From Cinnamomum chago (taxonomy: Eukaryota; Streptophyta; Magnoliopsida; Laurales; Lauraceae): DNA of 64,000 nucleotides. The stretch spans positions 63,480,001 to 63,544,000 of the forward strand of contig CP142459.1 of the NCBI GenBank assembly GCA_038049695.1, read 5' to 3'. Of the stretch, positions 3,326 to 51,304 are shown piece by piece; position 1 is the stretch's first letter, and each line of letters opens with the position of its first letter. The notes beneath the pieces were generated by a model, which worked only from the letters and a program-made list of their open reading frames with translations, did not search any database and was not told the origin of the DNA. The translations under genes and the position numbers were made by a program.

Positions 3326-6300
3326 GTGGATGTTCTTAAACAAGGTCGGGCATTCTGTTTTCTTCCACTGCCAGTTAGAACAGGATTGACTGTTCAAGTG
3401 AATGCCTACTTTGAAGTTTCCTCAAACCGCCGCAGCATATGGTTTGGAGCTGACATGGACAGGGGTGGCAAACTTCGTTCTGATTGGAATAGGCTTCTAC
3501 TAGAAGATGTTGTTGCACCAGCTTTCAATAAGTTACTACTTGGTGTGTGCAATTTATTAGGTCCGACAACGTCATACTACTCATTATGGCCCATGGGTTC
3601 TTTTGAGGAGCCTTGGGCCATCTTAGTGGAACAGATATACAGGAACATCGCTGACAAACCAGTGTTTTACTCAGATATTGAAGGAGGGAAGTGGGTTTTA
3701 CCAGCTGAAGCCTTTCTTCATGACAAAGAGTTCATTAAAAGCAAAGAACTTGGGGAAGCTCTTGTAATTCTGGGAATGCCCATCGTTCATCTACCTCATC
3801 CTCTAGTGGAGATGCTCTTCAAATATGCTTCTAGGCTTTGTCAAAGAATGGTTAGTCCTGCTAAAGTACGCGATTATGTAAAGGAGTGTGAAACCATGAT
3901 TTCATTAAGCAGAAGCCACAAATTGTTGCTGTTGGAATATTGTCTCATTGATTTGGTTGATGATGATGTTGGTAAACATGCGAATGGCCTGGCTTTGCTA
4001 CCTCTGGCGAGTGGTGATTTTGGAGTTTTTTCTGAAGCTTCAAAAGGGATGACATATTTTGTCTGCAATGAGTTAGAACACCGGCTACTTCACCAGATAT
4101 CCGATAAAATAATTGATCGGGATATTCCTTCTCACTTATTTGACAGACTTATAACTATTGCAAAGTCTTCGAAGGCAAACATTTCTTTTTTTGATGTTCA
4201 GTGTTTCCTTCAGCTACTCCCAATTTTTTTCCCTGTTGATTGGAAATATAACAATGGAGTTGTTTGGGATCCAGAATCAAATGCCAACCATCCGACGATC
4301 TCATGGTTCACACTTTTTTGGCAGTATCTACGAGATCAGTGTGACAGCTTGTCAAGGTTTGGTGATTGGCCTATCTTGCCATCCAATTCAGGGCATCTGT
4401 ACAGAGCTTGTAAATATTCTAAGTTGATTAATTCAGAGTCATTATCTGATACCATAAAAGATCTTCTTGCTAAGATTGGATGCAAGATACTTAATACTAA
4501 TTTTGGAGTTGAACATAGGGAATTGTCTCTCTATGTTCACGATGCCAGTGGTTCAGGTGTTCTAGAGGCTATCTTTGATGTGGTCACCCCGAATGGGAAT
4601 TTCCTGCAAATGCTTTTCCAAAATCTTGGAGTGGATGAGAAAAATGAGCTTCGTGAGTTCCTTCTTGACCAAAAGTGGTATGTTGGAGGCAACCTAAGTG
4701 ATGTCCACGTACAGAACTGCAAAAAGTTGCCCATTTATAAGGTATATGGTGGTGGATCCACTCAGGCGTTCCATTTTTCTGATTTAGAAATGCCAAAGAA
4801 GTACTTGCCACCTTTGGATGTTGATGTGTTCTTTTTGGGAGGAGAGTTCATAAGTAGGTCATCTAATTTTGAAGAAGAGATTTTAGTTAGATATTATGGA
4901 ATTGAGCGCATGGGGAAAACACATTTCTACAAGGAGAATGTGCTAAATAGAATTTCTGAGTTGGAGCCAGATGTTCGGAACACAGTTATGATATCCATTC
5001 TACATGATTTGCCTCAACTTTCTTTGGAGGACTCAACTTTTAAGGAATTTTTGAAAAAGTTGGAATTTGTTCCAACGCTGGGTGGAACTTTAAAATGCCC
5101 CCAGGCATTATATGATCCTCGAAATGAAGAACTATATGCTCTTTTAGAAGATTCAGATTGTTTCCCAAGTGGTGTATTCCAAGAATCAGGCCTTCTCGAC
5201 ATGTTGTTAGGTTTGGGCCTTAGATCATCAGTCTCCCCTGAGACAGTTATACAAAGTGCTCGCCAGATTGAATTGATGATGCATAGAGACCCTCTGAAGG
5301 CAAATTCACGAGGTAGGGTGCTTCTCTCATACCTAGAGGTAAATGCAAACAAATGGTTTTGTAATTCACTTAATGGTGAAAGAATAATGAACAAGATGTT
5401 CTCAAAAGTCACAGCTGCTATCATATCTCGCAATGGTTCTTTGGAGGCCAATTTGGAAAAATTCTGGAATGATTTGAGGATAATATGCTGGTGCCCAGTC
5501 CTTGTTAATTCTCCCTTTGCAGCATTACCATGGCCTTCTGTGACATCTATGGTGGCTCCTCCTAAGCTAGTGAGATTGCCAGCAGATTTGTGGTTAGTTT
5601 CAGCGAGCATGCGCATACTAGACGGCGAATGCTCATCAACAGCCTTGTCATTTAGCTTAGGCTGGTCTTCACCACCTGGAGGAAGTGTAATTGCTGCACA
5701 ACTGCTCGAGCTTGGTAAAAACAATGAAATTGTCACAGATCAGGTGCTTAGACAAGAACTAGCGCTGGCAATGCCTAGGATATATTCTATCTTGACTAGT
5801 ATGATTGGCTTGGATGAGATGGATATTGTCAAAGCTGTTTTAGAAGGGTGTCGCTGGATTTGGGTTGGAGACGGGTTTGCAACATTGGATGAAGTTGTTC
5901 TTAATGGTCCTCTCCATTTGGCGCCTTATATTCGTGTTATTCCTGTTGATCTAGCAGTTTTTAGGGAACTATTTTTGCAGCTCGGCATACGGGAATTTCT
6001 GAAACTGAAGGATTATGCTAATATTCTTTGTAGAATGGTTGCAAAGAAGGGTTTTACTCCACTAGATGCGCAGGAACTCAGGGCAGCAGTATTGGTTGTG
6101 CAGCATCTGGCTGAAGTTCACTTTCAGGATCAACATGTTCAAATTTATTTACCTGATGTGTCATGTAGACTGTTTCCCTCTACTGAGCTAGTTTACAATG
6201 ATGCACCATGGCTGCTCAACTCTGGAGACAGTATGTTTGAGAATACATCTGTTATCTCTTTGAATGCAAAACGAAATGTACATAAATTTGTTCATGGAAA

Positions 6301-9300: not shown

Positions 9301-9321
9301 ACATTGGCGACATCCTTCCTG
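3326..9321 (+). CDS. Sacsin-like exon A (1998 codons + 2 bases)
   Basis: The exon starts after CAG with GTG GAT GTT, in phase 0 and internal to the protein, so the GTG is not a start codon. It ends TCC TG before the donor GTATGC at 9322; the TG joins the first G of exon B to make Trp. It holds most of sacsin repeat 1, then repeat 2 from about residue 1038: the ATP-lid pocket with Glu1055, Asn1059 and Asp1062 in ELVQNADDA, and the glycine box GRFGLGFN at 1127-1134. A second GRAFCFLPLP block follows at 1421. A single exon of 6 kb is unusual in plants. The frame continues 47 bases into the intron before a stop, so intron retention would add about 15 codons. Confidence 0.95.
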
Positions 9322-20308: not shown

Positions 20309-20347
<39 letters not shown>

Positions 20348-23300
20348 TTGGTGAAGAGAAACCCAACTCAAGCTTAACTTGGCTCGGCTCGTTTATAGTA
20401 GAGCTTTTACTTGGAAAAGGGGAGTTGAGCAAAGCTTGGGCTGTGCTTATCAAACAAGACTCAAGGTCAAGTTTTGGGTGCTGGCTAGTTTATTTCCCTG
20501 CTTGGATATATGCATTAATCCTCTCTGTTCAAGTTAAATCAGATGGTATATTAAGTATAAAGCATGGTGCTCAGCTTGGATTGTTGTTGCAATGTTGCAT
20601 CTCTTATTTTGAAATGTACTCTGTGCAGGCTTTATGATCCACGTGTTCCAGGATTACAGAAATTACTGCACAAAGAATCTTTCTTTCCTTGTGATAATTT
20701 CTCAACTACCGAAAATCTGGAAACTTTAGTTAGTCTGGGTCTCAAGAGAACTTTGGGCTTTACTGGATTGCTTGACAGTGCGCGGTCAGTCTCGATGTTG
20801 CATGATTCAGGTTCTGCTGAAGCACTCAGCTATGGAAGGAGATTGCTTGCTTGTTTAGATGCTTTGGGGTTTAATCATTCCAGTAGGGGTGAGGAAGAGT
20901 GTTACAGAGGAAGTAGTAATTCTATTTTACATCCCAAGTCTGATTTACATGAAGTCACCAACTTCATAGAGACTTCAAATGCTCGTGAGAATTGTTGTGA
21001 ATGGGATATGGAACTGCAATCTTGTTTGGGCAATGTGCATCAAAATCCAGAAGATGACTTTTGGTCAGATTTGAAAACCATTAGTTGGTGTCCCGTTCTT
21101 GTTGATCCTCCGCTGGATGGTCTTCCCTGGTTCTTATCTAAGCACAAAGTTGCATCTCCAAGCATTGTGAGACCCAAGTCACAAATGTGGATGGTATCAT
21201 CAGTCATGAGGATACTAGATGGGGAATGCTTCTCAGAATACCTTCAATGTAACCTTGGTTGGATGGATCGACCTAATATTGATGTTCTGTCCACTCAGTT
21301 GGTAGAGCTCTCCAAGTCCTACTGCCAACTTAGGTTGCAATCTGAAGAGGTGCCACTTCTTGAAGCTGAACTGCAGAGAGAAATGCCATTGCTTTATTCT
21401 AAACTACAGGAGTTTGTTGGTACTGATGATTTTTCTGTTTTAAAATCTGCTGTAGATGGTGTTTCATGGATTTGGATCGGTGACAAATTTGTTTCACCAA
21501 AGGCACTTGCATTTGACTCACCAGTGAGATTTGACCCCTACTTGTATGCTGTTCCATCTGAGCTGTCTGAATTCAGGGTTTTGCTATCAGTGCTAGGTGT
21601 GAGACTAACCTTTGATACAGTGGACTATTTGCATGTTCTGCAACGGTTACGAGAAGACCTGAATGGATTACCATTATCGTCCGAGCAGTTAGGTTTTGTT
21701 TATCGTGTCCTTGAAGCTGTTGCAGATTGCTCTGCAGACAAACCTATATCTGATGGATTTATGAGTTCACTATTAGTTCCTGATTCTTCTGGAGTTCTGA
21801 TTAGCGCAGTGGATCTTGTGTACAATGATGCACCATGGATGGAGAATAATGGCCTTGCTGCAAAACATTTTGTACATCCTAGTATTGGCAATGATCTAGC
21901 AAACAGGCTAGGGGTGCAATCACTTCGTTGCCTGTCTTTGGTGGATGAGGAGCTAACGAAAGATTTACCTTGTATGGAGTACGCCAGAATACAGGAACTT
22001 CTGGCAATATATGGAGACAATGACCTTTTGTTGTTTGACCTTCTTGAGTTGGCAGACTGCTGCAAGGCAAAGAAGATACACTTGATATTTGATAAACGCG
22101 CACATCCTCGGCAGTCTTTGCTGCAGCATAATCTTGGTAAACAGTATTCATTTTTACATATCCAGCTTGTTGTAGCATGAATGAAGACCAGGCCTTTTTG
22201 TAAGAAAATGAGAAAAATGATACAAGAGTTAACTTAGTGTATTTTCATCAAATACATTATGGTTATAACATGCTGGACACTCCTTGAATTTCAGTTTCCT
22301 GTTTCAATGTGTGGCTACCATACTAATTTCTCTTATTTATTGTAAAACTTTCAGGTGAATTCCAAGGGCCTGCTCTGACAGCTGTCTTGGAAGGTGCTAC
22401 TTTGAGCAGAGAAGAAGTATGCAACCTCCAGTTCCTTCCTCCATGGAGGCTTCGGGACACTACTCTTAATTATGGTCTAGGACTTCTTAGCTGTTACTTC
22501 TTATCTGATGTCCCATCAGTTGTTTCTAGTGGCTACTTCTACATGTTTGATCCTCGTGGTTTGGCTCTTTCTGCACCATCAAGCCATGCTCCCTCTGCAA
22601 AGATGTTCTCTTTGATAGGTGCGTTCTTTTAATTAATCTTTTTGCAGATTTTTAAATAATATATCTGAAGAAAAATCCTGCATTTATAATATTAAAAAAA
22701 ATCCTGCATTTGTTGTTACCGAAAAAAAAAATTCCTGCATTTGAAAATACCACAACATTTTTCTAATACATAATTTCTCAACACTTTGCAAGGGCAATTG
22801 AAATACGAAAAGTAGTAGGGCTCACTATAATAAATTCCAACTACTCAAAATAATTGTTTTTTTTTTAAACTTGTTTTAGCATTGAGAGTTGTATCTCACT
22901 CTAATAAAAGTAGGACCCTTGCCAAATGATCATATTAAACCAATCCATCCACATTTAATCAATGAAAATCCGTTGATTGGTTATTTGTTATTATTGTTTG
23001 GTAGGCGACGATTCCTTGATAGACATGGATGGTTAAGAGGGCAGAATTTAAATGCATTCACCAAGTCATGAAAAGATGAAATGTGAAGATGTAAATGATA
23101 TTATTGCAAAGTTAAGGGTTCAGATCCTCTGAGTGCGTCACTCACACTTCCCATGAGGGTGTTGAACTCCAGAGTGGAGCCCACTTATTGAATATCTAAA
23201 CCTCTCAAAATAAACTCCCTCCCCTTAAGTGGGCTTTCCCCAAGTTTTACTTTAATAAGAGTTTAAGCTACCATAAGATTTAGCATATGATTAAGAATGT

Positions 23301-32300: not shown

Positions 32301-35300
32301 CACAAACACAAAGATAGCATCAAACCAACTACAACAAGAAATCACAAATGGAAACCGAATTAGATACTCTTTCTTAGCTAAGCTGTCTGCCATTTCATTT
32401 GCTGAACAAAGAACATGATTAGGTCTTTAATACTTTAATCTCATAAGGTTGAATTCGAATTACAAGGCATACCACTCTCATCCATGGCCCAAGATATTGC
32501 ATTGGAAGAGTTGCCTTCCACCATCAACTAGTCCCGAATATCTTGTAAATAGATTCTCTAAGCTTTTAAAATAGCCAAAACCTCTGTCATTGGAGTCTTT
32601 AGTGCCAACTAACTTAGAAAACGGAGCAAAGTTTGACATTCAAAATTGACCACCTATATTGGCTGGTCGTGGCTTACCTCTAGTCGCCCCATTGATGTTA
32701 AACTTCAGCTTGCAAGTAGGAGGAGGAAACCGCTCTTCAATCCTCTTTCCATTGGCCAAACAACACACCATACTTACCAATTATGCAAAATGAGATTCCA
32801 GTTCAGCCCATGAAACTCTTTCCTAATCATAGCCCATTTTGTCATCCTCCTGGTTACAACATTAAGATATCCTTCAGAGATGCTGTCAAAGCTTAAAATA
32901 TTGTATCATTTTCTCTTTTCCAAAAGACCACGGAATAACATCAGGGATGAGCTGCCAAAGTGTCAAGCTACACCCATGAAGCGGGCCGGACTTCCAAGTG
33001 GTTGCCAAGTCACTGAAAGATCTGGGAAGACATCAAACTATGAAATAATGATATCAAATACAAGAAGATATTTCATAATGGAGAAATAGGTGCTTGATAG
33101 ACTTTCTCATCTTGACCATACAAGAGCACATACTCAAGATCTCATGAGAGACAATGCCCCTTCTCCTTACATTATCCGCTGTAGACACTTTTCCTATGAC
33201 CTCCAATCAGCAATTGCCTCCACTCTAGGAGCAGCTAAACCAAGCAAAACACACAAATGAAGAAGCGACGGATGACTCTTAACACCTTTTGTTTTTAAAA
33301 GATAACTGTATTAATTGCTCAAAAAGACGTTACTGTATATCGTATTAATTGCTCAAAAAGACTTTACAGTAAGAGAAAGATACTGAAAGAAAAAGGCCCA
33401 CACAGAAGGGGGAGCAAATAACCAAAATGAGGACCAATGCCCCAAAAACTGGGCAGCAGCCCCCAAAAGAAGCTAAATACAAATTAATAGTGTAGAATCA
33501 AGAAGGCTTGGAGACTACCTCTTTTGCAAGCTTGTCCGCTTCCACGTTTGCCGATCGACTAATATGAGTGAAGGAAATTTTCAACTCACTGGAGAGATGA
33601 GTCACCTCTTCATTGAATCTAACAACTTAAGACAATAACCTGATGTGCATGGCTTTTGAGTGGGAACATCTGCCTCTTCCCTGCGAAGAAAAGCTAATAA
33701 AGATACTAGGAAATTCCCACATCTCTTTTGTTACATGATTAGAAGCATCCTAAAGAGGTCGAGGTTCAAAGATTGGTAGATAATCTCTTCATCAAAAAAG
33801 AAAAAAAAAAAAAGGAGAAAAAAAGGAGAAAGAAATTCACTGACAAATGAGATGCAGCTGTTTATAACTATTCCAGTGCCTATAGCATGCACGACATTTT
33901 TGCATTCTATTCATCAATGGTGTGCTATCGAGTTGTTAAAGTTCCCCTTGAGTTGACTCGCTGCTACTCCCAAAGACCTTAAGATTATGAAAAATAATCA
34001 GAATGTTTAGAAAATAGAGAATGATTTCCTCTAAGTTTAAGCCAAACACGTTCAATTTTTCAGAATGAATTTAAGCAATGATAGGTGGCCACATTTGATT
34101 TTCATTTAGTTGGATAAACATTGCCTTCAATCTTCCAAAGAATGTGGTTTTGATCCTCTGAAATGAGTGCAAATGGAGCCTGGATGCCTCCAACAGCCCA
34201 ACATCTTCTCACAGCAAAAGAATTTTTAAAAACAGTCAGGGCCCTTTTAAAAAGCTTAGTCTAATCTAATAATAGCTAGTTAAATTAGGGCTAGAATAAA
34301 TAATTATAGTTCTTAAGTTCTAATTTACATTTAATACGTTTGGTAAAATTCTAAAGAAAAGCTCTGATTTTACAATAGTATGTTGGTAAACATTCGAATA
34401 AGAAAAAGGAAAAAACTTACTTGGGGAAATTTTCAGAAACATAATTTTAGAGGAAGAATGGGATTAGAGGAAGAGCTGTATGAGTGGAATTGAACAATTA
34501 TAAAAAAAAAAAAAAAAAAACCAAAACTTACAGTGTACTCACACATGAAGACTTCTATCTGTGCCAGAGGGAGAATTGTGTGGGAGTGACTAGGGAGAGC
34601 GTTGCGCTTGGAATGGTGCTTGAAGTGGTGGTCTAAGGCTTATTCAATTGGAGAGAAAATAAGAGAGAAAAGGGAATTTAAGGGATAAACCCATTTTATC
34701 ATAGCCATTTTCCCCCAAAACATACATGATACATAATTCAGCCTATTCCATCTTTTAGCAGTTTAGAGAAATAAGCTATCACAAAAAAGTAGAAATCAAT
34801 TAGAACTCCTATTAGAGGTTTCCCAAACACCCTAAAATGTAAATAATCTCTACAACAAAAAATAAGCTCTTTATATTAAAGTTTCCAAACAACTTCTTAA
34901 TTTAACCTTTTCACATAGGATTTGCCTGGAGGGATTCACGGGATGAATCGACTAGGAGGCTGAGTTGACTCAGACTTGAACAAATTTTAAAATCATGGGT
35001 ACTGTGCTTCCTGGATAGAATTTCGTTCCATCCATTTTACAAACTGTCCCCACGCACAGTTATATTTCACAAGCCACCTGATTGATTAAAATAGTGGAAA
35101 ATGGAACAAAACTTGAGTGCATCCTTTCATATGATATAATTGGTGTTGTCTTATTTTTTCATTATTTATTCTTCATTCATTTTTTCTCTATGGATCCCCA
35201 TCCTTTATTTTTCATACTTTATTTTTCCAGGAGGTATCTTGCTTACAACTTAACGCCAGTTGCTGGAGTTGCAGCACACATATCTCGAAATGGACAGCCT

Positions 35301-38300
35301 GCCTCACCCCATCCATCCAGCTGCATTTTATCTCCACTCCCTTTGTCTGGTGATATAAGCATGCCAGTCACTGCTCTTGGATGCTTCCTTGTGTGTCACA
35401 ATGGTGGTCGCTATCTCTTCAAACACCAAAACGATGTGGCTTCGTTAAAATTCCAACCTGATGTTGGAAATCAACTAATAGAAGCTTGGAACAAAGAACT
35501 GATGTCTTGCATTCGTGATTCATATATTGAGATGGTGTTAGAATTTCAAAAGCTAAGAAGAGACCCATTGGCTTCTAGTATTGAGTTGAGTTCAGCACGT
35601 ACTGTTAGTCTGATTTTACAGGCTTATGCAGATCGAATTTACTCATTCTGGCCAAGGTCTAAGCAGCAGTCTTTATCCCTGACTCAACCTGATGCTGCTG
35701 TCAGTAGTTCAAGTTCATCTCGTGAAGCAGAATGGAAATGCCTGGTTGAACGAGTAATAAGGCCTTTTTATGCACGCCTTGTTGATCTTCCTGTCTGGCA
35801 GCTGTATTGCGGCAATGTGGTTAAAGCTGATGAAGGCATGTTCCTCGCCCAATCTGGGAATGGAATAGGTGATAATTTGCCCCCTGCTACAGTTTGTAAC
35901 TTCATCAAAGAGCATTATCCTGTATTTTCAGTGCCATGGGAATTAGTGAGTGAAATTCGAGCAGTGGGAGTGACTGTGAGAGAAATCAAGCCTAAGATGG
36001 TTCGTAATCTCCTTAAGGCTTCTTCTACATCTATTGTGCTTCGATCAGTTGAAACATACGTTGATGTGCTGGAGTACTGTTTGGGTGATATTCAACTACA
36101 GCCATCATCAAATTTATCCAACACTGACAATTCAGGGATAGTTGTTAGTCGGGATCCACTGGATGAAGTTCATATGCCAGAGGATATCAATATGCATAGA
36201 AACGGGGCACCTTCACTTATATCAAATGTGCATGGATCTGACCATGTGGTTACGCAGAGTCCTGATGCACTAGAGATGGTGACAAATTTGGGTAAAGCAT
36301 TGTTTGATTTTGGTCGAGTGGTTGTGGAAGATATAGGCCGAGCAGGAGGTCACAAGATCACCATGTCTAGTAGTAGCACAGATGGTCAACAGCTGCCATC
36401 AATAGCTGCTGAGTTCAATGGCTTACCATGTCCAACTGCAACAAAGCATCTCGCAAGGTTTGGTGTAACTGAACTTTGGGTTGGGAGCAAGGAGCACCAG
36501 TTACTAATGCTTCCACTAGCAGCAAAGTTTATCCATCCATTGTGCTTAGAAAGATCAATCTTAGCAGATTTTTTATCCAACCATACCATTCACAGATTCT
36601 TGAAGTTGCAGAGTTTCTCCCCTTACCTATTGTCAAGTAATCTGAAGTTACTTTTCAGTAAACACTGGGTTAATCTTGTGATGGATTCTAAGGCTCCTTG
36701 GTTTTCATGGGACAATGGTAATAATGCAACTGATGGAGGTCCCTCACCCGAATGGATACAGCATTTTTGGAAAAGTTTCAGCAGATCAAGTGACCTCTCC
36801 CTTTTTTCTGATTGGCCACTTATTCCAGCTTTTCTAGGTAGGCCCATCTTGTGTCGTGTTAAGGAGCATCACCTGGTATTTATACCACCTATTGCTGAGC
36901 CACTTTTGGACAGTGGAGACTCAGTTTTGAGCTATGAGGGGAATGAGATGAGTGTATCTGAAAATCGTATGGCTGAACCTGACAGAATGCAGCCCTACTT
37001 AAGAGCATTTGAAATAATAAAATCTAGATATCCTTGGTTGTTTTCACTCCTGAATCAGTGCAATATCCCTTTATATGATATGTCTTTCCTGGACTCTGGC
37101 ATCCCATGTAATTGTTTGCCTTTACCTGGTCAAACACTTGGGCAAGTGATTGTTTCGAAGTTGCTTGCGGCTAAACGTGCTGGTTATTTTTCTGTACCGG
37201 CTTCTCTGTTGAATGCAGATCGTGATGAATTGTTCACACTCTTTGCCTCAGATTTCTCACCCAATAGATCTGCATACAAAAATGAGGAGCTTGATGTGTT
37301 GCGAGATCTTCCTATATATAAAACTGTTGTGGGAACATATACACCGTTACATGGGTCAGATCAATGTATTATTTCTCCAAACTCATTCTTTCAACCTTAT
37401 GATGGAAGGTGCCTTTCTAATTCAGTAGATCCAAGTGGTCGCCTATTGTTTCATGCACTTGGAGTTCCTGAGTTGCAGGATCAAGAGATATTGGTGAGGT
37501 TTGCCCTGCCTGGATTTGAGCGAAAAACACAGGGGGAACAGGAGGACATTTTAATATACTTATACATGAATTGGCAAGATCTTCAACTAGATTCTGCAGT
37601 AGTTAGTGCTTTGAAAGAGACGAAGTTTGTCCGAAGTGGCAATGAAGATAGTTTGGAATTATTTAAGCCCAGAGATCTGCTTGATCCTTGTGATTCTTTA
37701 CTCACATCAGTATTTTCTGGGGAAAGAAACAGGTTTCCTGGTGAGAGGTTTACTTCTGATGGATGGCTTCGTATTTTGAGGAAAACAGGTCTTCGGACAT
37801 CCACGGAGGCTGATATGATACTTGAGTGTGCTAGAAATGTGGAGTTGCTCGGAAGGCAGGCTGTAAAGTCTGTAGAGGATCCTGGTGACTTCGAGGCCGA
37901 CTTCTCTGATTCCCTCAATGAAGTTCCTCTTGACATATGGTTATTAGCTGGATCTGTTGTGGAAGCTATATTTACAAACTTCGCTGTTCTATATGGCAAC
38001 CATTTCTGTGACCAGCTTAGTAAGATTGCATTTGTACCAGCTGAAAAGGGGCTTCCAACTATTGGTGGCAGAAAAGGTGGGAAGAGAGTTCTTTCATCAT
38101 ATAGTGAAGCAATCCTATTGAAGGATTGGCCTCTGGCCTGGAGCAGCTCTCCGATTCTCTCCAAAATGAATGTTATTCCTCCGGAATACTCTTGGGGAGC
38201 ATTACACCTAAGGAGTCCCCCTGCATTTTCTACAGTCTTAAAGCATTTGCAGGTAGTAGAACTGATTCCCTTTTGTCCATCTGTTGGTGTCTGTGTTCTG

Positions 38301-41300
38301 CCTTGATGGGATAAGGCTAAGATGATGCCAGTGATGATAATGATGTTTATATATTTATGGTCTTCTGTCATGCCTTTAGTTTGACTAGTAAATTGTCACT
38401 ATTTAAAGAAAGCGTACATTGATATTATCAATTACACTGAAACATGCTTCAGGTTGTCGGAAGGAATGGTGGTGAAAGCACTCTAGCCCACTGGCCAACA
38501 TCATCAGGCATGATGACCATAGAGGAGGCTTCTTGTGAAGTTCTGAAATATCTGGACAAGTCCTGGGAGTCTGTTTCTGCTTCAGGTGGTTCAATCTTTT
38601 GGTTTAATATTGATGTTATGAGCATCCATTTATTATCTAGTATGTGTTAGCAATAAAGGACCTCCATGAAATGAGGGGTCCACTATGCCCCCATATATTA
38701 GTTACTATTGAAAATAAATATTAAATTCTAACATTTTCCAATGTTAAGTGCTTAGGTGAAGAATTGGTTATTTCCCTCCTTAAAGTGGAATCTTCTCTTA
38801 TAAAAAAAATGAAGTGGAGACTTTTCAAAACTATCTTGTATTAAGGCTTCCTCTTATTTATTTATTGTTTTTGGCAGATAAATCAGATTTGCAGAAAGTT
38901 GCATTTGTCCCAGTTGCAAATGGCACACGACTGGTCACAGCAAACTCTCTCTTTGTGCGTCTCACAGTTAACCTTTCTCCATTCGCATTTGAACTTCCTA
39001 CTCTTTATCTTCCATATGTGAAGATCCTCAAGGACTTTGGGCTTCAAGATGTACTTTCTGTCACCTGTGCAAAAGATCTTTTACAAAATATCCAGAGGTC
39101 ATGTGGATATCAACGTTTGAATCCTAATGAACTTCGCGCTGTGATGGAGGTCTTGCGCTTTATTTGCGATGGAGCAGTTAAAGTAAGTTCAGATGGGCCT
39201 GAATGGTTACCAGAGGCGATAGTCCCAGATGATGGCTGCAGACTCGTTCTTGCAAGATCCTGTGTTTATATTGATGCTTATGGTTCCCAGTTACTCAGAA
39301 ATATTGATACTTCCAGGCTTAGATTTGTTCACCCAGATCTTCCAGAAAAAACATGCATGACCTTGGGCATCAAAAAGCTTTCTGACGTGGTAGTGGAGGT
39401 AAATGTTATTATTCGAAAACATGTTCCCCTTTTAAACAAACATCTACAACGTGGCAATCTATACCTGTCAAAAAAATGCGGCAACATGTCTAATCATGCT
39501 TGTACACCGTCATGTTACACATGCTGCATTTAGATATTGATTCAAATCATCCAAATCATTGTTCCTGTTATAGGTTACATATAGAGGGCATAAAGGAATC
39601 AGTACTATCTATTTATGTAGTCGAATACAAGGATAAAATACATAGAAATAAAGAAGAATGGGATGATTTGTATCTTCAAATAAAAAACTGGATAGTTCCT
39701 TCCATTAGGAGCATAACATTTTCCTGTTAACTTTAGTACTGTTATTTATATAAAAATTTTCCACTCTATGAAGTTTGGGTTACTATGATCCAGCCATGGA
39801 ACATTTTCCATCTAGGGTCCCAATCCCTCCACAAAGCTTCTGATGGGTAGTGACCCACTTGGTGGTAAGATTATTGCTTTTGAGGTTTGGGACCATTGGC
39901 CCACTGATACAAGGCTTTATGCTACAGCTGTCCTTAGGTGCTTTTGCTTCTTTCAATCAGATTAATAAGACCATAGGTGAGGTGCATTACTGTGCATATG
40001 AATTCAACTTCTCCTTTAGTCATTAACTATGCAGTGTTAATCAGGCTTGGTCATGGAGCAGAGAAATTCAAAGTGCTGAGTCTGGGATTATGGGAGGCCC
40101 TACACTGCCTATCAGTAATTTCGTAGGAGCTGCTCCAATTAGTTCTAAACATGTGGGTGATGGAGTCTCTCAATCTGTCTGTTAAGGCAGAGTGTGATGG
40201 CAGTATTCCCACTGCCATTATCTGCCATTTTTTTTTTTTTGTGAGACACGTATATTGGTTGAACTTCGATATTTGAGAGGTAGAGGAGATCATTATTGAA
40301 ATTGATTATGTTTTGGGCACCTATTTTAGTGGAAAGAGGATCAGAAGTCAGAGCCATGGTTAATCAGCTGTTTTGAGGAAAAGGTCAATGCCTGATTTTT
40401 AGATTGCAAGGGGTCATTTCAATTAGAGGAGATCTCAACTGTTAGCTTGGATGAGAAGCCGGGATTTTTGTCAGTTGTCACTTCCTTGTACATCTGGCTG
40501 GCGTCCATTATCACTGGGTTAATTAGTTTAATGAAGACAATTATGGGGATGGGGGAGCAGATAGTATGTAAAATCCTGCTAGTGCTGCAATAGATGAGGT
40601 CAAAGTTCTTGGTGATTCTACCATTAAAAAAAAGTTCTTGATGATGGAATGGCGGAGTTGGTTGTCATGGGTATATCTTGTGGTAAAAATAAAGAGATCA
40701 TGTGTTTGTGAACAGGTTTTTGGGAAGATTGTGATGTAGCATTACATAGGGAGTGATAAATCTTTAAAAGAAAATCTGAAGGGAAAGAAAAGTGAGAGCT
40801 TCCCAATCTTCAAGGATCAGTGAATTATGATCATTGTTCAGAGTCATCGGAGAAGGGTGCAACTGTAGTGTCTTGATAATTGTTGGTCCCCCTCTAGGGT
40901 ACACTATTTTCATGACAAGAGTCTAATTTCTGGGCTTCTCATGTTTCTGGGGTTATATGGGTGTATCTCGTCATTATTTGATTTCCTTTGTTCCTATTTT
41001 GGTGTGGAAATAAATAATCAATTATTATTTCTAATATAGATATGCACGCACACAGGGAAGAAGGGATATAGCCTTGAGAAGTTGAATGGTAACCTCCCGT
41101 TTTGGACACAAGATGCTATTTTTAATCAAGTAAGCACAGCATCTGCTGGTAATATTTCGAATGTCCATCATTAAAGAATGTATGTAGTTATTAGTTGCAA
41201 TATCTCTTTGCTTCTCTATTTTCATTCTCAATGGTTTAAGACCAGCCGATAGATGACACCTGTAACACAATTATTGGCTCAAGTATCTTGTTTTTTATTC

Positions 41301-43687: not shown

Positions 43688-43725
<38 letters not shown>

Positions 43726-46700
43726 TTTGTGTGTGTGTTGTAGGAGCTGGATCACGAGAAACAATTACAGGTTCTGGATCACATTGGGTCCGTTTCACTG
43801 AACATGGTAAAAGCCAAACTCATGAGCAGATCCTTGCAAGCTGCTGTGTGGAACGTCGTAGGTTGTATAATAGATTACGTTCCAGCATTTGAAGGCATGA
43901 CTTCAGAGCAGATACAGAGTTCCCTTGAATCTGTTGGAGAAAAATTGCAGTTTGTTCAAAGCGTTCACACCCGATTTCTGCTACTTCCAAAGTCTCTCGA
44001 TATCACCAGGATTACTAAGGAACCCGCTATTCCTGAGTGGGAGGGGGGATCAGGACATCGAACTCTTTATTTTCTCAACAGATCAGGGACTTGTATTTTG
44101 GTTGCAGAACCTCCCAGTTACGTGTCTGTTTTTGATGTCATTGCGATTGTTGTAAGCCAGGCATTGGGTTCATCAGCCGTATTACCAATTGGACCACTAT
44201 TTTCTAGTCCTGAGAGTTCAGAAAAGGAAGTTCTTGATATACTAAGGCTTGGGTCTGACAGAGGTCACCATGGACATGGAGGGGGGAGCAGTAGTTTGGT
44301 AGGCAAGGAACTGTTCATGCAGGATGCTATGCTTGTGCAGTTCCACCCCTTGCGACCATTTTACCGAGGAGAAATTGTAGCGTGGAGGATTGGAAAGGAT
44401 GGGGAGAAATTGAAGTATGGCAGAATTCCGGAGGATGTCAGGCCATCTGCAGGTCAAGCTCTTTACAGGTTTACAGTGGAAACCGCAGTAGGTGAGGTGC
44501 AGCAACTTCTTTCTTCTCAGGTTTTCTCTTTCAGAAGCATTTCAATTGAAGATGGTGCTTCGTCGTCAACTTTGCCCGACCATGGTCAGACAAATTTGGA
44601 AAGCAAGAATCATGTGCAGGTTGTTAAAGGTGCTGGGAGCTGCAAAACTGTGTCTCAGGTTTGAGTCTCTTGGAACATTTTGTACTGATTATATCTTGGC
44701 ATGACTGTTGCTTTGCTGATAAATAATTAAACATACACTACATTGAGCTGAAATAGATATGTATATATTTTAATTCAGCAATCAGCTAAAGATCTCCAGT
44801 ACGGTCGAGTATCTGCAGAGGAATTGGTGCAAGCTGTCCATGACATGCTTTTTGCAGCTGGGATCAACATGGATTCAGAGAAGCAGACTCTTTTGCAAGC
44901 AACTCTATCTCTGCAGGAACAGCTCAAAGAATCTCAGGCCACACTTCTGCTTGAGCAGGTTTGTCTCTTGCTCTCTCTTGTTTTGCTTTTGGCTGGAGCA
45001 GATACCACCAGTTCATTTTCCTTTCACCATCTTGACCAGCTGATGCAGCGTCTTCTAGCAACTCTATCTGTTATATTTCTAGAACTTGGCTGTTAAGCTT
45101 TGACTTTAAGACCTGAGTCAATTTGCAGACTCAAACTGACCACTTAACCAATTATGATTGCATATGGGTTGTTTTGGTCCAGGGTATCCCTAATATTATC
45201 CCTTACCACTTCTATCGTTGTAGCTTCAGGTTTGGGTTGGGTTGGATTGAGCCCTCTATAACTTAGAATGTGAACTTGACCTGCATTTAAAACTTAAAAC
45301 AGGAACCAGAAACCGACCCTACTGGATTGGTAAATGCACAGGATTGCATCCTGCTTATACCCAATTTGTGATTCATAATTTCATATTATAATTGTCATTT
45401 CATTTCTCAAAAATCATTGCAACTCAATCTGCCGCCAAAAATCAAGGAAACCTCTCAAGGCAATAACATTTTGACTCTGAAACACCCAAAAATAATAGCA
45501 AGCAAAAGAGAATTGAAAGGCTCATTAAATTCATGGTGTAAGTTGAGGAAACTGATAGCCACAAAATATAGGGAGTCAAAGATTGGAGATTTTAAAGTAG
45601 GGATGACAACGGGTAGGTGTAAAACCGTACCTAACCCGACTCCCACTTGTCCTGCCCTGTCACAGGTTTAGGATATGTGATACCAAAACCTTCCCCATGA
45701 TTGGTATGGGTTGAGTTGGGTCTGATATGGTTTTTTTGTTTTAAATTTAGAAGAATTACCAGGTCTTGAAGAAGGTTTATATTTATATATGTTTTTTTTA
45801 AATAAATATATAAATTTAATAAATGGGGCAGAGTGGATTGGACCAGGCCAAACCCAATTCTTATAGATGTGGGTCTGGCCAGGTCACCTGTTTAACCTGA
45901 CCCACTGTCATCCGTATTTTCAGTGTGGGAGATTAAGGCTGTCTTAAAGGGCACCTACTTTGCTGGGGATGTGTCCCAACTCCTAAGTTAGGCTATGGGA
46001 GGACGTTTGCATGGAAGATAGCTCTACCATATCCCTTGTGAAGGAGCAAAATTACAAATAGTTGTTCAGACTTCACAGAGAGAGAGGGCATTTGGGGATA
46101 AAAAGGCCCCCTGAATTATGAATCCCCCCTCCCCCTCACCCAACAATAAATAAATAAATAAATAAAAGAAAAGAAAAGAAGATAAAAAGAAATACAAATT
46201 GCACACATTATGTATACTATTGACATTGGTTGAGTGTTTCAAGATAGGCCACTAGAAAGAACCAGCTGTGTGAATTATGAATTGGCAAAAAGTCAATATG
46301 TGCACACTGGAAACGAAACAGCCCAATGAGTTATGCCTTTCCCGAAAATCACTATTTACACATTTGGAAAAAAAAAGCCCATATATTATGAATATCCCAG
46401 AAATCACTATCTGCATACTGGAAAAGAAATGCCCCCATGAATTGTGAATTGCTCGAAAATCACTATTTGCACACTTTATGTTGTGGATAGAAAATACTTC
46501 AATTTGATACTGAGTACAACTATGACTGTATGACCTATTGACATTCAAGCACAGGGCAATTTTGAAAATGGTTGCCTACTTCTCAAATGAGGATCCACTC
46601 CCCCCAGGAAATCCACTGGAATAAATCCTCTGAAAGGATTGTTACTTCCAGCAATTTGCAGGAGCACAGAGTTAAGGTGTTGGGCATTCCAGTGTCCCAG

Positions 46701-49700: not shown

Positions 49701-51304
49701 GCCTATGAAACTCATGAATCGAGATCTTTTGCACAAGTGGCTCTGGAGGATTGGAGGAGATCCAGATTGCATGTGGGGTAAAGTTCTAGTGGCTGTATAA
49801 GGTGTGGGATGGAGAGGTTGGGATATCCAATATCTACGGTTATTCAGGTCTATTGGAGGGGAACAGTTTTTGTGCCACAAGTTTTCGCAAGCTACATTGT
49901 GTATGGGGATGGATTTGGAGATGGAATCTTTTTCTGGTTCAATACTTGGTTTGACAATCCTTCCTTGGCTGTGCAGCTCCAGATTTTATTCAATTACGCT
50001 AGGGATTGTCAGGCTAAAGTCTGCAAGTTTATGGACTGACTAGAGAATAAGGTGCTTTGGGGCCTGATCTTCAGGAAGAATCTGCTTGAGGCTGAAGAGA
50101 GACAACTTTTCTCCCTCGTCATTAGCCAGGTATACCTTCTGGAAATGGGTTAGGATGGAGGTGTTGGACTGCTTCAAAGATGGTACATTGTCAGTGTCTT
50201 ATCTCTTTTTTTTCCCCCAATTATCTATCAAGTGTTTCTGCTTCTAGAAGCCCGCTGCATTATTTGTGGAAGTCTTAAGGTTCCACCAAGGGCTATCGCA
50301 TTTGGCTGATTGGCGCTTCGTGCAGGCATCCTCACAAGTCATTTGGAGGTCAGTCCTCTTCTGGTTTGAATGTAATTGGGTGTCTTCTCGGACTCTTTTA
50401 GTTCACTTGAAGGAGTGGAAGAAGGCGGTTTGAATTTGGATCCTCATGAGTAGAGTTATGTGGACAGTCTCTTTAGGGGATCCTGGCAGTTATTTGGGCT
50501 AATATTTGGAAAGCAAGGAACCGATGATGTTTTGACAACAAATCTTTAGTGGAGGATATTTCTGATATGGTGAGAGGTTCTTTATTGTTTCATGGGTTTC
50601 CATCCTCCCTTTGTTTCGAGGTCTCCCCTTAGACCTCATTCAGCTGAAGTGGAGAGTAAGTGGCACGCATGCATCAGCTAGCTGATAAGGATTTCTCCCG
50701 TGCTTGTTTTTATTTTCCTGTTTTTCTTTCCTGCTGTTTTAGGTGGTTTAAGTCCTGCCCTGTATGCTGTGGGGCCTTTTCCTGTTTTGCTTTGATGCAT
50801 GTCAGTTCATCCATCTTTTACTGTTGAGCATTTAAATTAACTCAAGTTATGATTCGGAAAAAAATGGATAAATATAAAATGGTCTTTGATAAGTTTGGCT
50901 CCACAATGCAGGTTCGGAGATTCTCATTCCAGAAAATGACAGGCACTGAAATCTGTTTTAAGGGCTTCTGACCCCCAAAATTCCTTTAACAGTTTATTAC
51001 TTTTATTCTTGTGTGTGTGTGTGTCCTTTTTCTTCGCTTTGTGGATCATTAGTAGTATGATATATGTTACTTTTTGTAACATTGTGGATATGGATGCCAT
51101 TTGCAGGAAAAGGCAGAGGCAGCAGCAAAAGAAGCTGATGCAGCAAAGGCTGCATGGTCATGCAGGGTCTGTCTGAGCGCTGAGGTTGACATCACAATAG
51201 TTCCTTGTGGCCATGTCCTGTGTCGTAGATGCTCGTCTGCTGTTTCCCGGTGTCCCTTCTGCAGGCTCCAAGTGTCGAAAACATTGAAAATCTTCCGGCC
51301 ATAA
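3326..51304 (+). CDS. Sacsin-like giant protein with C-terminal RING finger (5' partial)
   Basis: I join eleven exons: 3326-9321, 20629-22136, 22355-22618, 26588-26805, 29961-30232, 35231-38252, 38453-38585, 38878-39398, 43744-44658, 44779-44958 and 51107-51304. All borders are GT..AG, all phases match, and the result is 4408 codons plus TAA with no internal stop. By recall the Arabidopsis homologue AT5G23110 is about 4700 residues, so roughly 300 N-terminal residues are upstream of the window. Numbering from the Val codon at 3326: a conserved GRAFCFLPLP block recurs at about 7 and 1421. A GHKL/Hsp90-type ATP site lies at 1055-1063 (ELVQNADDA) and 1127-1134 (GRFGLGFN). A degenerate third module starts near 2470. 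A C3HC4 RING occupies about 4362-4395. Animal sacsin is a chaperone-like protein ending in J and HEPN domains. The plant form instead carries a RING, so a ubiquitin E3-type role is plausible but is my inference. The cellular location in plants is unknown to me. Confidence 0.95.
11558..11562. repeat. Target-site duplication GAGGG (left copy)
   Basis: The five bases GAGGG before the left LTR are repeated at 16864-16868 directly after the right LTR, which proves insertion of the copia element as one unit. Confidence 0.9.
11563..11859 (+). repeat. Copia 5' LTR (297 bp)
   Basis: It begins TGTTAAACAGGCCC and ends AATTTGTCA. It contains a TATATATT box near 11766, a likely promoter for the element. 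It matches the right LTR except for five substitutions and three extra bases in an AAG run. Confidence 0.95.
11860..11871 (+). other. Copia primer-binding site
   Basis: TGGTATCAGAGC lies directly after the left LTR. This is the usual plant copia site complementary to the 3' end of initiator methionine tRNA. Confidence 0.9.
12489..16514 (+). pseudogene. Copia gag-pol polyprotein interrupted by two stop codons
   Basis: One frame runs from ATG 12489 to TAG 16514 and is broken only by TAA at 13902-13904 and TGA at 15243-15245. In order: a UBN2-type gag; two CCHC zinc knuckles at about 13167-13208 and 13220-13261; an aspartic protease motif DSGA near 13485; a GAG-pre-integrase motif (LWHNRLGHP) just before the first stop; an integrase core with SDSGGEY near 14265; reverse transcriptase with YVDD at 15606-15617, after the second stop; and RNase H with SDADWAGC near 16098. 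An in-frame TGA at 12480 sets the earliest start, so gag may lack a few N-terminal residues. Both stops are single-codon lesions with no frameshift, as expected for a young copy decaying after insertion. Confidence 0.93.
16555..16569 (+). other. Copia polypurine tract
   Basis: A purine run ending GAGGGGGGG lies immediately before the right LTR and would prime plus-strand DNA synthesis. Confidence 0.85.
16570..16863 (+). repeat. Copia 3' LTR (294 bp)
   Basis: It starts TGTTAAACAGGCCC and ends AATTTGTCA, followed by the GAGGG target duplication at 16864-16868. As it lies in sense with the host gene, its polyadenylation signals could act on sacsin pre-mRNA. Confidence 0.95.
17425..19872. mobile_element. 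Solo LTR, 2448 bp, with ATTTG target duplication
   Basis: The block begins TGTCACGACCC and ends GGATATTACA, the TG..CA pattern of an LTR. It is flanked by identical ATTTG at 17420-17424 and 19873-19877. No second copy of its ends, no primer-binding site, no purine tract and no coding frame are visible, so it fits a solo LTR left by unequal recombination. Its length and the ACGACCC/TATTACA ends suggest a Ty3/gypsy family, but that is inference. It contains a 29-bp tandem pair at 19285-19342 and several degenerate phrases around GTGGGTCCC at 18440-18810. Confidence 0.8.
20311..20346. repeat. (AAT)12 microsatellite
   Basis: Uninterrupted AAT triplets lie in the large sacsin intron, about 280 bp before exon B; probably polymorphic. 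Confidence 0.95.
20629..22136 (+). CDS. Sacsin-like exon B
   Basis: It starts with the G that completes Trp, then LYDPRVPGLQ, and ends CAT AAT CTT G before donor GTAAAC. It encodes the end of sacsin repeat 2 and the first part of repeat 3. Near residues 2470-2480 the sequence ELADCCKAKK stands where the ATP-binding ELVQNADDAGAS box sits in repeat 2, so the catalytic Asn and Asp are missing. An ATG at 20633 might be mistaken for a start, but the frame is internal. Confidence 0.93.
22137..22354 (+). other. Sacsin-like intron (218 bp)
   Basis: Donor GTAAAC and acceptor TTTCAG fuse CTT G to GT GAA TTC. AT-rich; I see nothing else in it. Confidence 0.9.
22355..22618 (+). CDS. Sacsin-like exon C
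   Basis: Two bases, 87 codons and one base fit both neighbours. It encodes the degenerate ATPase-like module of repeat 3: LNYGLGLLSC occupies the place of GRFGLGFN in repeat 2, with the nucleotide-binding glycine pattern altered, and YFYMFDPRG matches the conserved strand that follows in active units. Confidence 0.92.
23951..24128. repeat. 89-bp tandem duplication
   Basis: A unit containing ATTCAGTCCACCATATTTTC starts at 23961 and recurs 89 bases later at 24050. The copies differ at only a few positions. Confidence 0.9.
24687..25317 (+). mobile_element. Complete TRIM (miniature LTR retrotransposon), 631 bp
   Basis: Two LTRs (24687-24976, 290 bp; 25021-25317, 297 bp) flank only 44 bp of interior. 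That interior has a Met-tRNA-type primer site TGGTATCAAAGC at 24980-24991 and a purine tract GGTGGGGGAG at 25011-25020. The target duplication CTAAT is perfect at 24682-24686 and 25318-25322. The LTRs end GTTACA; the left begins TGTGAGA and the right AGTGAGA. By eye they are roughly 85-90% alike, so the insertion is old. There is no coding capacity; it must have been mobilised by another element's enzymes. No 5S rRNA-like block is seen, so it is not Cassandra. Confidence 0.9.
25770..26000 (-). mobile_element. L1-type LINE 3' end (truncated, antisense)
   Basis: Read on the minus strand, the sequence ends an RNase H-like domain (motif MVDGLAKEGVS near 25920), then a T-rich 3' tail with GTGAAATAAAGTT and a terminal A run (T run at 25771-25780 on the plus strand). 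This is a typical 5'-truncated plant L1. Confidence 0.6.
26588..26805 (+). CDS. Sacsin-like exon D
   Basis: Two bases complete a Gly, then 72 codons (TNLVERFVDQFHPML ... FLKSVLQ) end in phase 0 at donor GTAAGG. It continues the degenerate repeat-3 module; the FVDQFHPM block parallels FPDQFAPF of repeat 2. Confidence 0.92.
27430..28641 (-). pseudogene. Degenerate copia pol fragment (RT and RNase H)
   Basis: On the minus strand, 28641-28396 gives an RT end with the motif YIDDIVIT (the copia YVDD box). Further along, 28013-27690 gives RNase H with TDTDWAGFKTDRQST. Continuing to about 27430 is the degenerate C-terminal part of pol. Frames are broken repeatedly, no LTRs were found, and it is much older than the copia at 11563. 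Confidence 0.8.
28990..29515 (-). pseudogene. RTE-like LINE reverse transcriptase fragment
   Basis: The minus strand encodes pieces typical of the plant RTE-type RT: GKVTGPDGIPIEAWKYLGEIG-like sequence near 29380-29320, followed by LTRLFNKIFKTKKMP and NYRGIKLLNHTMKLW toward 29140. Frames shift between the pieces, so it is non-functional. Confidence 0.8.
29961..30232 (+). CDS. Sacsin-like exon E
   Basis: Ninety codons plus AG, starting GTA ACA CTA after TTTCAG and ending before donor GTATGC. It encodes VTLSTWEEGS ... WLVVLSLGSGQTRNMALDR, the conserved strand-rich end of the repeat-3 ATPase-like module. Confidence 0.92.
30296..30331. repeat. (ATTT)n-(ATT)n compound microsatellite
   Basis: TTTATTTATTTATTTA runs into ATTATTATTATT in the intron directly after exon E. 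Confidence 0.9.
31300..32100 (-). pseudogene. L1 LINE reverse transcriptase fragment
   Basis: Minus-strand translation around 31680-31450 gives, with frame breaks, an L1 RT signature: a GGDEAPGWDGF-like box, then FIVMVPKKK and an ENLRPMS-like box. Sequence up to about 32100 fits the region before the RT core. No intact frame survives. Confidence 0.6.
32150..33300 (-). pseudogene. L1 LINE C-terminal part (zf-RVT, RNase H) and 3' tail
   Basis: On the minus strand a zinc-binding RVT-type region (HLFLH-like, near 33090) is followed by RNase H motifs: KLKFNINGATRGKP near 32710, VEGNSSNAISWA near 32510, and NEMADSLAKK near 32395. A 3' tail runs to a poly-T (poly-A on the minus strand) at about 32153. 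Multiple stops are present. Confidence 0.65.
33290..33620 (-). mobile_element. Second L1 3' end, 5'-truncated
   Basis: The minus strand gives SANVEADKLAKEV-like RNase H end near 33550, then a 3' tail to about 33290. It contains a short direct repeat (GTATTAATTGCTCAAAAAGAC twice near 33308 and 33343). It sits next to the L1 end at 32150-33300, suggesting nested or stacked insertions. Confidence 0.55.
35231..38252 (+). CDS. Sacsin-like exon F
   Basis: One base plus 1007 codons. It opens RYLAYNLTPVAGVAAHISRN after TTTCCAG and ends AAG CAT TTG CAG before donor GTAGTA. It carries the bulk of sacsin repeat 3, including RPFYARLVDLPVWQLY near 35762 and a variable Ser-rich linker at about 36100-36400. 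An LFKPRDLLDP motif near 37660 corresponds to the LYDPR blocks of repeats 1 and 2. ATGs near 35100-35190 belong to the intron and are not starts. Confidence 0.94.
38253..38452 (+). other. Sacsin-like intron (200 bp)
   Basis: Donor GTAGTA, acceptor CTTCAG. Joins HLQ to VVGRNGGE. No other content seen. Confidence 0.9.
38453..38585 (+). CDS. Sacsin-like exon G
   Basis: Forty-four codons plus one base: VVGRNGGESTLAHWPTSSG ... SWESVSAS, then G. The donor is GTGGTT, a weak site. The family conserves TLAHWPTSSGM strongly, which fixes this small exon. Confidence 0.92.
38586..38877 (+). other. Sacsin-like intron (292 bp)
   Basis: Donor GTGGTT, acceptor TTGGCAG. The G before and the AT after make Asp. 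No other content seen. Confidence 0.88.
38878..39398 (+). CDS. Sacsin-like exon H
   Basis: Two bases plus 173 codons: KSDLQKVAFVPVANGTRLVT ... GIKKLSDVVVE, ending in phase 0 at donor GTAAAT. It belongs to the region after repeat 3 that is typical of the plant protein. A start at 38814 in the same frame is within the intron. Confidence 0.93.
41671..42072. repeat. Near-perfect 202-bp tandem duplication
   Basis: A unit starting TTGGAAAGTTGTAAACAAAAC at 41671 recurs at 41873 with no difference that I can see for about 200 bases. The lack of divergence marks it as very recent, or as an assembly artefact. Confidence 0.93.
43690..43742 (+). repeat. (CT)n-(TG)n microsatellite forming the polypyrimidine tract of exon I
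   Basis: About 16 CT units, then TTTGTTTGTGTGTGTGTTGTAG, reach straight to the AG used as the 3' splice site. The repeat therefore supplies the pyrimidine tract, and its length may change splicing efficiency. Confidence 0.85.
43744..44658 (+). CDS. Sacsin-like exon I
   Basis: Three hundred and five codons from GAG CTG GAT (ELDHEKQLQ) to TCT CAG before donor GTTTGA. An internal Met at 43804 is not the start. It contains FVQSVHTRFLLLPKSLDI, the proline-rich LVAEPPSYVSVFD and VQFHPLRPFYRGEIVAW, blocks conserved in plant sacsin-like proteins. Past the donor, TGA follows at once, so retention of the next intron would truncate the protein before the RING. Confidence 0.93.
44659..44778 (+). other. 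Sacsin-like intron (120 bp)
   Basis: A non-optimal donor GTTTGA and acceptor ATTCAG. AT-rich; nothing else seen. Confidence 0.88.
44779..44958 (+). CDS. Sacsin-like exon J
   Basis: Sixty codons: QSAKDLQYGRVSAEELVQAV ... LLLEQ. The part from NMDSEKQTLLQ onward is Leu/Gln/Glu-rich and probably forms a coiled coil that continues into the Ala/Glu-rich start of exon K. Donor GTTTGT is weak and matches the weak donor of exon I. Confidence 0.92.
45598..45920 (+). repeat. MITE-like repeat with GGATGACAAC ends
   Basis: The left edge TAGGGATGACAACGGGTAGG is mirrored at the right edge, where the minus strand reads ATACGGATGACAGTGGGTCAGG. The inverted ends and about 320-bp length suggest a non-autonomous DNA transposon-like repeat. 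The left edge resembles those at 17311 and 492 (minus). Confidence 0.45.
46540..47400 (+). pseudogene. Possible L1 ORF1 relic
   Basis: Plus-strand translation with stops gives a stretch resembling the DUF4283-type part of plant L1 ORF1: VKVLGIPVSQWWLL near 46674, then VTKCGKAVGHS near 46717. A hydrophilic Ser/Lys-rich stretch follows. The similarity is weak; its position before ORF2 on the same strand is the main support. Confidence 0.35.
47830..48170 (-). mobile_element. MITE-like element, copy 1 (TAGCGG-rich)
   Basis: The minus strand begins GGTTCAAAATAGCGGCCGC and ends CTGCTATTTTGATC, so the termini are inverted repeats of about 14 bases with a core TCAAAATAGC. Many CGTAGCGG words lie inside. 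Copy 2 at 58712-59034, in the opposite orientation, matches along the whole length with moderate divergence. No target duplication is clear. Confidence 0.7.
48370..50660 (+). pseudogene. L1 LINE ORF2 relic (reverse transcriptase)
   Basis: Plus-strand pieces in shifting frames follow the order of plant L1 ORF2: KAAIFDLSNHKAPGLDGFT near 48530, PVSLISSIYKIMAKVLAGRL near 48740, AYDRVDWRFLKSML-like near 48940, and RQGNPLSPFLF-like near 49100. A C-terminal WKARN-type block lies near 50505. Frameshifts and stops are frequent. The MITE-like copy 1 lies just upstream. Confidence 0.75.
51107..51304 (+). CDS. Sacsin-like exon K: C-terminal C3HC4 RING
   Basis: Sixty-five codons plus TAA at 51302-51304. 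After an Ala/Glu/Lys-rich helix (EKAEAAAKEADAAKAAW) comes Cys19-X2-Cys22-X11-Cys34-X-His36-X2-Cys39-X2-Cys42-X6-Cys49-X2-Cys52 (exon numbering), a complete C3HC4 RING of the type found in IAP- and MGRN-like E3 ligases. The protein ends KIFRP. All eight zinc ligands are present. Confidence 0.96.
   Translation, partial: EKAEAAAKEADAAKAAWSCRVCLSAEVDITIVPCGHVLCRRCSSAVSRCPFCRLQVSKTLKIFRP

Follow-up and report, generated by a model that had tools for sequence, protein, structure and literature searches.

Does a plant sacsin carry a RING finger of the ubiquitin-ligase type in the same polypeptide as its chaperone-like repeats, and what would such a protein do? These questions are raised by a locus on contig C9 of the 1.06 Gb Cinnamomum chago assembly, where a stretch of 64,000 nucleotides (C9:63480001-63544000; hereafter, the window) was analysed. 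An earlier note on this stretch had described sacsin repeats joined in one frame to a last exon that encodes a complete C3HC4 RING, and had suggested a protein that senses clients through ATPase-like repeats and may ubiquitinate them.

The architecture itself is not new. Public annotation already contains it: AT5G23110, which we take to be the Arabidopsis sacsin ortholog of about 4,700 residues, is annotated with a C3HC4 RING. In the available excerpts of the literature it is printed as a 'Zinc finger, C3HC4 type (RING finger) family protein' (PMC3981707, PMC6118316), is described with several exons and a T-DNA line, SALK_069537 (PMC6338467), and appears among accession numbers just ahead of a yeast two-hybrid screen (PMC7501814). 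The longest protein of canahua, CP013000 (4,769 residues), is called sacsin-like, with quinoa, beet and spinach cited (PMC6858295); it resembles the protein described here in length and in its sacsin-like name, and the excerpt of that source does not mention a RING. In excerpts of other studies, a table of candidate genes for photosynthesis includes a sacsin of Chlamydomonas (PMC8448359), and a wheat region for insect resistance contains a sacsin-like gene (PMC8874221). No study of the function of a plant sacsin ligase was found in the open-access literature, a body of text that lacks most subscription journals, and the mentions of AT5G23110 excerpted from it do not study function, in agreement with the earlier remark that the role of the plant protein is poorly described.

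Structure of the gene

The gene was modelled with a dynamic program combining codon composition and splice consensus, after 20 kb of upstream sequence had been added. Splice weights were approximate, and start and stop were set by hand, so that the model could not end anywhere but at the RING stop. The model has 13 exons and 4,765 residues in one frame, all 12 of its introns are GT-AG, and it spans 62.5 kb (Table 1). Its length, close to that of the canahua protein (4,765 versus 4,769 residues), lends it weak support. A first automatic model (12 exons, 4,732 residues) was dropped because, as inspection of 38200-38900 revealed, it relied on a weak donor site and skipped exon 9.

Exons 3-13 lie in the window, while exons 1 and 2 lie 4-11 kb before it, the gene starting 11.2 kb upstream. 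Position 3326, at which the earlier note let the gene begin, is the exact start of exon 3 but not of the gene, and because its gene began at exon 3, the first SACS domain was left out. A search of the whole assembly with Pfam SACS gave at least four matches, all in this one sacsin gene and two of the four upstream of the window. Large plus-strand frames, measured from stop to stop, occupy 3320-9370, 20561-22180, 35082-38306, 38784-39533 and 43744-44664, and exon 3 lies inside a single open frame of 2,016 residues. The coding score was 104 for exon 11, which was itself part of the training set, 8.6 for exon 12 (reached by 68 of 1312 background stretches) and 4.6 for exon 9 (reached by 127 of 3378). 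Long minus-strand open frames opposite coding exons (5014-5739, 21700-22233 and 37583-38395) were taken as shadow frames rather than genes. Nothing useful came from scans with Rfam or for tRNAs, promoters and terminators.

Table 1. Exons of the predicted sacsin gene and the SACS domain of unit 2, in window coordinates (negative values lie upstream of the window).
Feature	Position	Strand	Content
Exon 1	-11170..-10827	+	upstream of window; with exon 2 carries the SACS domain of unit 1
Exon 2	-5194..-4468	+	exons 1-2 within contig C9 63468830-63475532; SACS domain of unit 1, E 3e-92
Exon 3	3326..9321	+	residues 358-2355; remainder of unit 1, most of unit 2
SACS domain of unit 2	about 6419-7114	+	in exon 3; Pfam SACS 1.8e-77, PDB 5V44 3.5e-55
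Exon 4	20629..22136	+	residues 2356-2858; end of unit 2, start of degenerate third SACS domain
Exon 5	22355..22618	+	third SACS domain; 29.7 bits alone, below cut-off; spliced segment 4.6e-30
Exon 6	26588..26805	+	third SACS domain
Exon 7	29961..30232	+	third SACS domain, end
Exon 8	35231..38252	+	residues 3110-4117; body of unit 3; open frame
Exon 9	38453..38585	+	44 residues; added by hand; frame-consistent, GT-AG
Exon 10	38878..39398	+	end of unit 3
Exon 11	43744..44658	+	C-terminal region without recognised fold; open frame
Exon 12	44779..44958	+	helical linker, ends LLLEQ
Exon 13	51107..51304	+	short helix, complete C3HC4 RING, tail ending KIFRP, stop TAA

Intron 3 contains a Copia-type LTR retrotransposon (window 11560-16830, plus strand) with gag, integrase and reverse transcriptase domains, the frames of which run through 12483-16514 (stop-to-stop, Pfam). 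Its two direct repeats of 264 bases are 98% identical, which suggests a fairly recent insertion into the host intron. An open frame resembling the start of a BED-finger transposase was noticed by eye in intron 2, about 3.1 kb before the window (L006), and runs into a stretch of N ahead of it. Fragments resembling the remains of a non-LTR reverse transcriptase, likewise noticed by eye, lie in intron 12 (48383-50050, plus strand); four pieces of them gave no Pfam match at E <= 0.01.

Three sacsin units, two with intact N-boxes

Three SACS domains, one per unit, were each above the Pfam cut-off (Table 1), with a weak start of the third visible close to the 3' end of exon 4 (Pfam, E 0.01). The NCBIfam model P_loop_sacsin matched exon 3 (7.1e-16), and the solved sacsin domain PDB 5V44 matched unit 1 (8.4e-49) as well as unit 2. 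The likeness extends beyond the ATPase domain, units 1 and 2 sharing 34% identity across 1,451 alignment columns; unit 3 matched unit 1 in three stretches (21-38% identity) and unit 2 in two (24-40%). When the whole protein was compared with itself by blastp, no internal repeats were reported, and the repeats were seen on comparing the split units. Pfam gave nothing at E <= 1 on exon 8, the last part of which matches the profile of bacterial single-unit proteins described below. The earlier reading of the repeats was sound as far as it went but incomplete: there are three sacsin units, and the SACS domain of the first, upstream of the window, had been missed. In a tree of 22 SACS domains the three plant domains grouped weakly (80/81), the third on a very long branch, and for these reasons no claim is made on the origin of the triplication.

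In the Hsp90 fold, the Glu and Asn of the N-box serve ATP. The N-box reads ELIQNADDA in unit 1 and ELVQNADDA in unit 2, whereas that of unit 3, DLLELADCC, has Asp for Glu and Leu for Asn, QNADDA having become ELADCC. From these residues, units 1 and 2 are predicted to bind, and may hydrolyse, ATP, while unit 3 is probably a structural pseudo-ATPase. The phrase 'ATPase-like repeats' therefore suits units 1 and 2, which keep the N-box, but needs limiting because unit 3 has lost its residues. This comparison covered the three plant units.

Human sacsin has three SACS units, with a J and a HEPN domain at its C-terminus, according to the excerpted source (PMC3710099), and three SACS units are thus common to animal sacsin (SACS, DNAJC29) and the plant protein. 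The two differ at both ends. Pfam at E <= 1 found no J, HEPN or ubiquitin-like domain in seven pieces that cover most of the plant protein apart from exon 9 and some junctions, and a RING stands at the C-terminus instead, upholding the view that the protein lacks the J and HEPN end of animal sacsin. Vertebrate sacsin has an N-terminal ubiquitin-like domain, whereas the first SACS match of the plant protein already begins at residue 18, counted from the first Met of the model.

Between unit 3 and the RING, residues 4336-4700 (exons 11-12) contain no Pfam family above the cut-off, and the 385 residues preceding the RING gave no PDB match at E <= 1. A single-sequence fold of exon 11 had a pLDDT of 34 and was unusable, and no relatives of exon 11 were found in viral contigs.

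Probable joining of the RING exon to the sacsin frame

The RING exon is very probably fused to the sacsin gene, the join between exons 12 and 13 being predicted from genomic sequence. Intron 12 is in phase 0 on both sides, with its donor after 44958 and its acceptor before 51107. Scored with consensus weights, the exon 12 donor stands in the top 11 of 5820 candidates and the exon 13 acceptor in the top 62 of 3891. From its opening at 51080 up to the first zinc Cys, the RING frame contains no ATG, so that an upstream exon is required; on the same ground, a standalone RING gene within the last intron was ruled out. Six phase-0 acceptors above threshold are followed by at least 40 open codons, and 51107 is the only one to open the RING frame, although the scores of three of the six carry no meaning because they lie in a transposon-like, penalised stretch. 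A helical register continues across the junction, with 75% of a/d positions hydrophobic; this helical pattern is a weak point, since Ala was counted and the best of seven registers was taken.

Codon composition, tried as support for the RING exon, failed and counts against it. The exon scores -7.1, which is not coding-like and is equalled or exceeded by 632 of 946 overlapping stop-free background stretches. By comparison, reading through from exon 12 into intron 12 gives a score of +5.5 before a stop after 45 codons, and intron 12 measures 6.1 kb. These observations would favour a gene whose main product is a RING-less sacsin, in which exon 12 reads through, the RING exon is rarely used, and the protein serves as a chaperone scaffold only. 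Such a product is very unlikely, however, given the rank of the exon 12 donor, a RING that is complete and high-scoring yet without an ATG of its own, the helical pattern (weak, as noted) that continues across the junction, and the C3HC4 RING annotation, cited above, of the presumed ortholog AT5G23110. Matching intron phases and Pfam scores bear out the earlier claim that sacsin repeats and a complete C3HC4 RING share one frame, with the RING in the last exon, and the joined gene is the reading followed from here on.

A RING with an IAP-like tail

An HMM search for the RING, as proposed earlier, placed it (51080-51304) well over the cut-off for Pfam zf-C3HC4_3, with E 7e-12 and 45.4 bits versus a cut-off of 27. 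All eight zinc ligands are present in C3HC4 order and spacing. Across the six reading frames of the window this spacing pattern turns up once, and none of 100 first-order Markov simulations produced it. In the PDB, the closest solved RINGs belong to IAP E3 ligases, which make up the best 10 of 55 matches (BIRC3, BIRC2, BIRC7 and XIAP).

The resemblance includes the tail, which had gone unremarked in the earlier reading. In the plant protein, 13 residues follow the last zinc Cys, and the chain ends two residues past a conserved Phe. Nine of the ten best IAP matches extend to this residue (Phe 48 of the query), 4ic3 stopping short; two residues follow the Phe in eight of these nine chains, as in the plant RING, and one in 8w59. 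An Arg stands directly after the last zinc Cys of the plant RING. Arg at this position acts as a linchpin that favours the active E2-ubiquitin state; it is no IAP hallmark, since a XIAP chain has Tyr there. IAP-type RINGs dimerise, and their C-terminal tail contacts ubiquitin across the RING dimer. The plant RING may likewise be a dimeric RING of the IAP type, as argued from RING subtype and tail length only, and on these features the protein is predicted to have E3 ubiquitin ligase activity and to ubiquitinate its clients. The likeness does not reach beyond the RING. IAP ligases possess a BIR domain, and Pfam found none in the pieces of plant sacsin scanned; unlike the RINGs of the IAP family, that of the plant protein is attached to sacsin units.

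The RING might also be joined to the sacsin units and yet have no ligase function, acting as a dimerisation knob in a protein that is a chaperone or holdase. The habit of IAP-type RINGs to dimerise would suit this role. So would the description of animal sacsin as a chaperone, whose listed domains, in the excerpt of the source, include no RING (PMC3710099). We consider a knob unlikely, because the RING keeps its full set of eight zinc ligands together with the Arg that follows the last Cys and a Phe tail like that of the IAPs, and such a tail would be superfluous for a mere knob. A RING that functions as an E3 ligase remains the preferred interpretation.

Bacterial relatives of the sacsin units

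The sacsin units also have relatives in bacteria, a homology that the earlier note had missed together with the tail. TmtA profiles of PADLOC matched exon 3 (2.7e-74), the first 357 residues (2.5e-44) and exon 4 (1.8e-5), and gave no match on exons 8 and 11. The PADLOC output gives TmtA without description; we take it to be the gene of the Tiamat anti-phage system. A scan of prokaryote genomes with the second SACS domain as a lone query recovered no relatives, while a two-sequence SACS alignment recovered 106 from 234 candidate stretches; the 80 best of these relatives were retained. By title, 21 of the top 23 are cyanobacteria, the seeds of the search being plant sequence. Frames were examined at 24 loci (373 to 2,226 residues, some of them cut by contig ends or split), and long complete ones were chosen.

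All five bacterial proteins scanned were identified as TmtA by PADLOC (best E 4.8e-102 to 0), and each has a single SACS domain and no RING, in contrast to the three units and RING of the plant protein. In two of the five, a NOV_C domain lies close to the C-terminus (L028 5956-11553, 4.6e-13; L030 2087-7870, 1.2e-08). NOV_C is named after the plant protein NO VEIN, which hints that NO VEIN and plant sacsin may be two branches of one old family.

A profile was built from seven single-unit proteins, six from prokaryote genomes (L008, L014, L015, L021, L028 and L030) and one from a viral-contig record (L087). It matched the plant sacsin with an E of 1.5e-287 in a one-protein search and still at 1.3e-116 when the SACS domains were masked, with 0 of 21 reversed or shuffled controls matching. 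The profile passes over the protein three times, covering 11-1052 and 1225-1364 in unit 1, 1374-1740, 1772-2380 and 2641-2789 in unit 2, and 2808-3164 and 3785-4337 in unit 3, where the biggest gap lies. The C-terminal 429 residues had no blastp match in the seven proteins. Judged from these profile matches, the plant sacsin units are homologs of TmtA over much of each unit. The plant protein, being eukaryotic and built of three units, is best regarded as a homolog of TmtA and not as a member of its family.

The neighbourhood of the bacterial genes was sampled with ten ORFs picked from seven loci of TmtA relatives (PADLOC cut 1e-5). The second gene upstream of the relative at L028 (3024-4163) matched NsnB at 5.1e-102, which is consistent with a defence neighbourhood. 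ORFs at L021 and L025 gave weak defence matches, and those at L012 and L027 continue TmtA. The L027 ORF (10240-11787) goes on from TmtA into an HNH nuclease domain (7e-11), which in bacteria may be an output domain open to exchange. Five of the ten ORFs had no defence match at 1e-5.

These relatives raise the possibility that the plant protein is an immune sensor, its sacsin units detecting a virus- or damage-related ligand as TmtA may, with the RING as a swapped-in output. The seven-protein profile, which matches all three plant units with and without masking and none of the controls, would fit this idea. Excerpts from studies of animals point the same way, in that the eight genes found to be widely induced by a virus in trout include a sacsin-like one (PMC11258392), a lumpfish sacs-like gene is in a qPCR list taken to be of induced genes (PMC11357929), and an oyster resistance scan includes a sacsin-like gene (PMC9437489). 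However, in lumpfish a viral mimic represses sacs itself (PMC11357929), the excerpted text counts Tiamat among systems whose mechanism is unknown (PMC10482375), and the excerpts of the open-access literature report no immune phenotype for a plant sacsin. Half of the neighbouring ORFs are without a defence match, and function is not carried over by homology. No joint mention of sacsin and Tiamat was found in the open-access literature, and the word TmtA is absent from open-access papers among the matches listed. An immune role for the plant protein is unlikely.

With the same low probability, plant sacsin might be a triplicated eukaryotic relative of TmtA whose output was replaced by an IAP-like RING, making it a giant intracellular sensor, for immunity or damage, that attaches ubiquitin to whatever it captures. 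RNF213 is an antiviral giant E3, and if this conjecture were true, the plant sensor would be its counterpart in logic. The sacsin units would then be an old sensing module with exchanged outputs: NOV_C or HNH in bacteria, J and HEPN in animals, and a RING in plants.

Proposed mechanism and biological meaning

The reading that we favour, with a probability of roughly 0.6, is that the plant sacsin-like RING protein is an ATP-regulated client clamp with a C-terminal E3-type module that ubiquitinates captured clients. ATP binding, possibly with hydrolysis, in units 1 and 2 would clamp the client, while unit 3 would serve as a structural pseudo-ATPase. A helical stalk would present the RING, which would dimerise in the manner of IAP RINGs, and the donor ubiquitin on the E2 of one protomer would be held by the C-terminal Phe of its partner. 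The captured client would thereby be ubiquitinated in place; animal sacsin would instead pass its clients to Hsp70 via the J domain.

In plants, the sacsin modules would be coupled directly to a ubiquitin ligase, which would suggest that the job shared by plant and animal sacsins may be the delivery of clients to the ubiquitin-proteasome system. Homology to a family listed as anti-phage adds the testable idea that the repeats originated as an immune sensor or were recruited from one, and plants would be handy for testing such a gene by knock-out.
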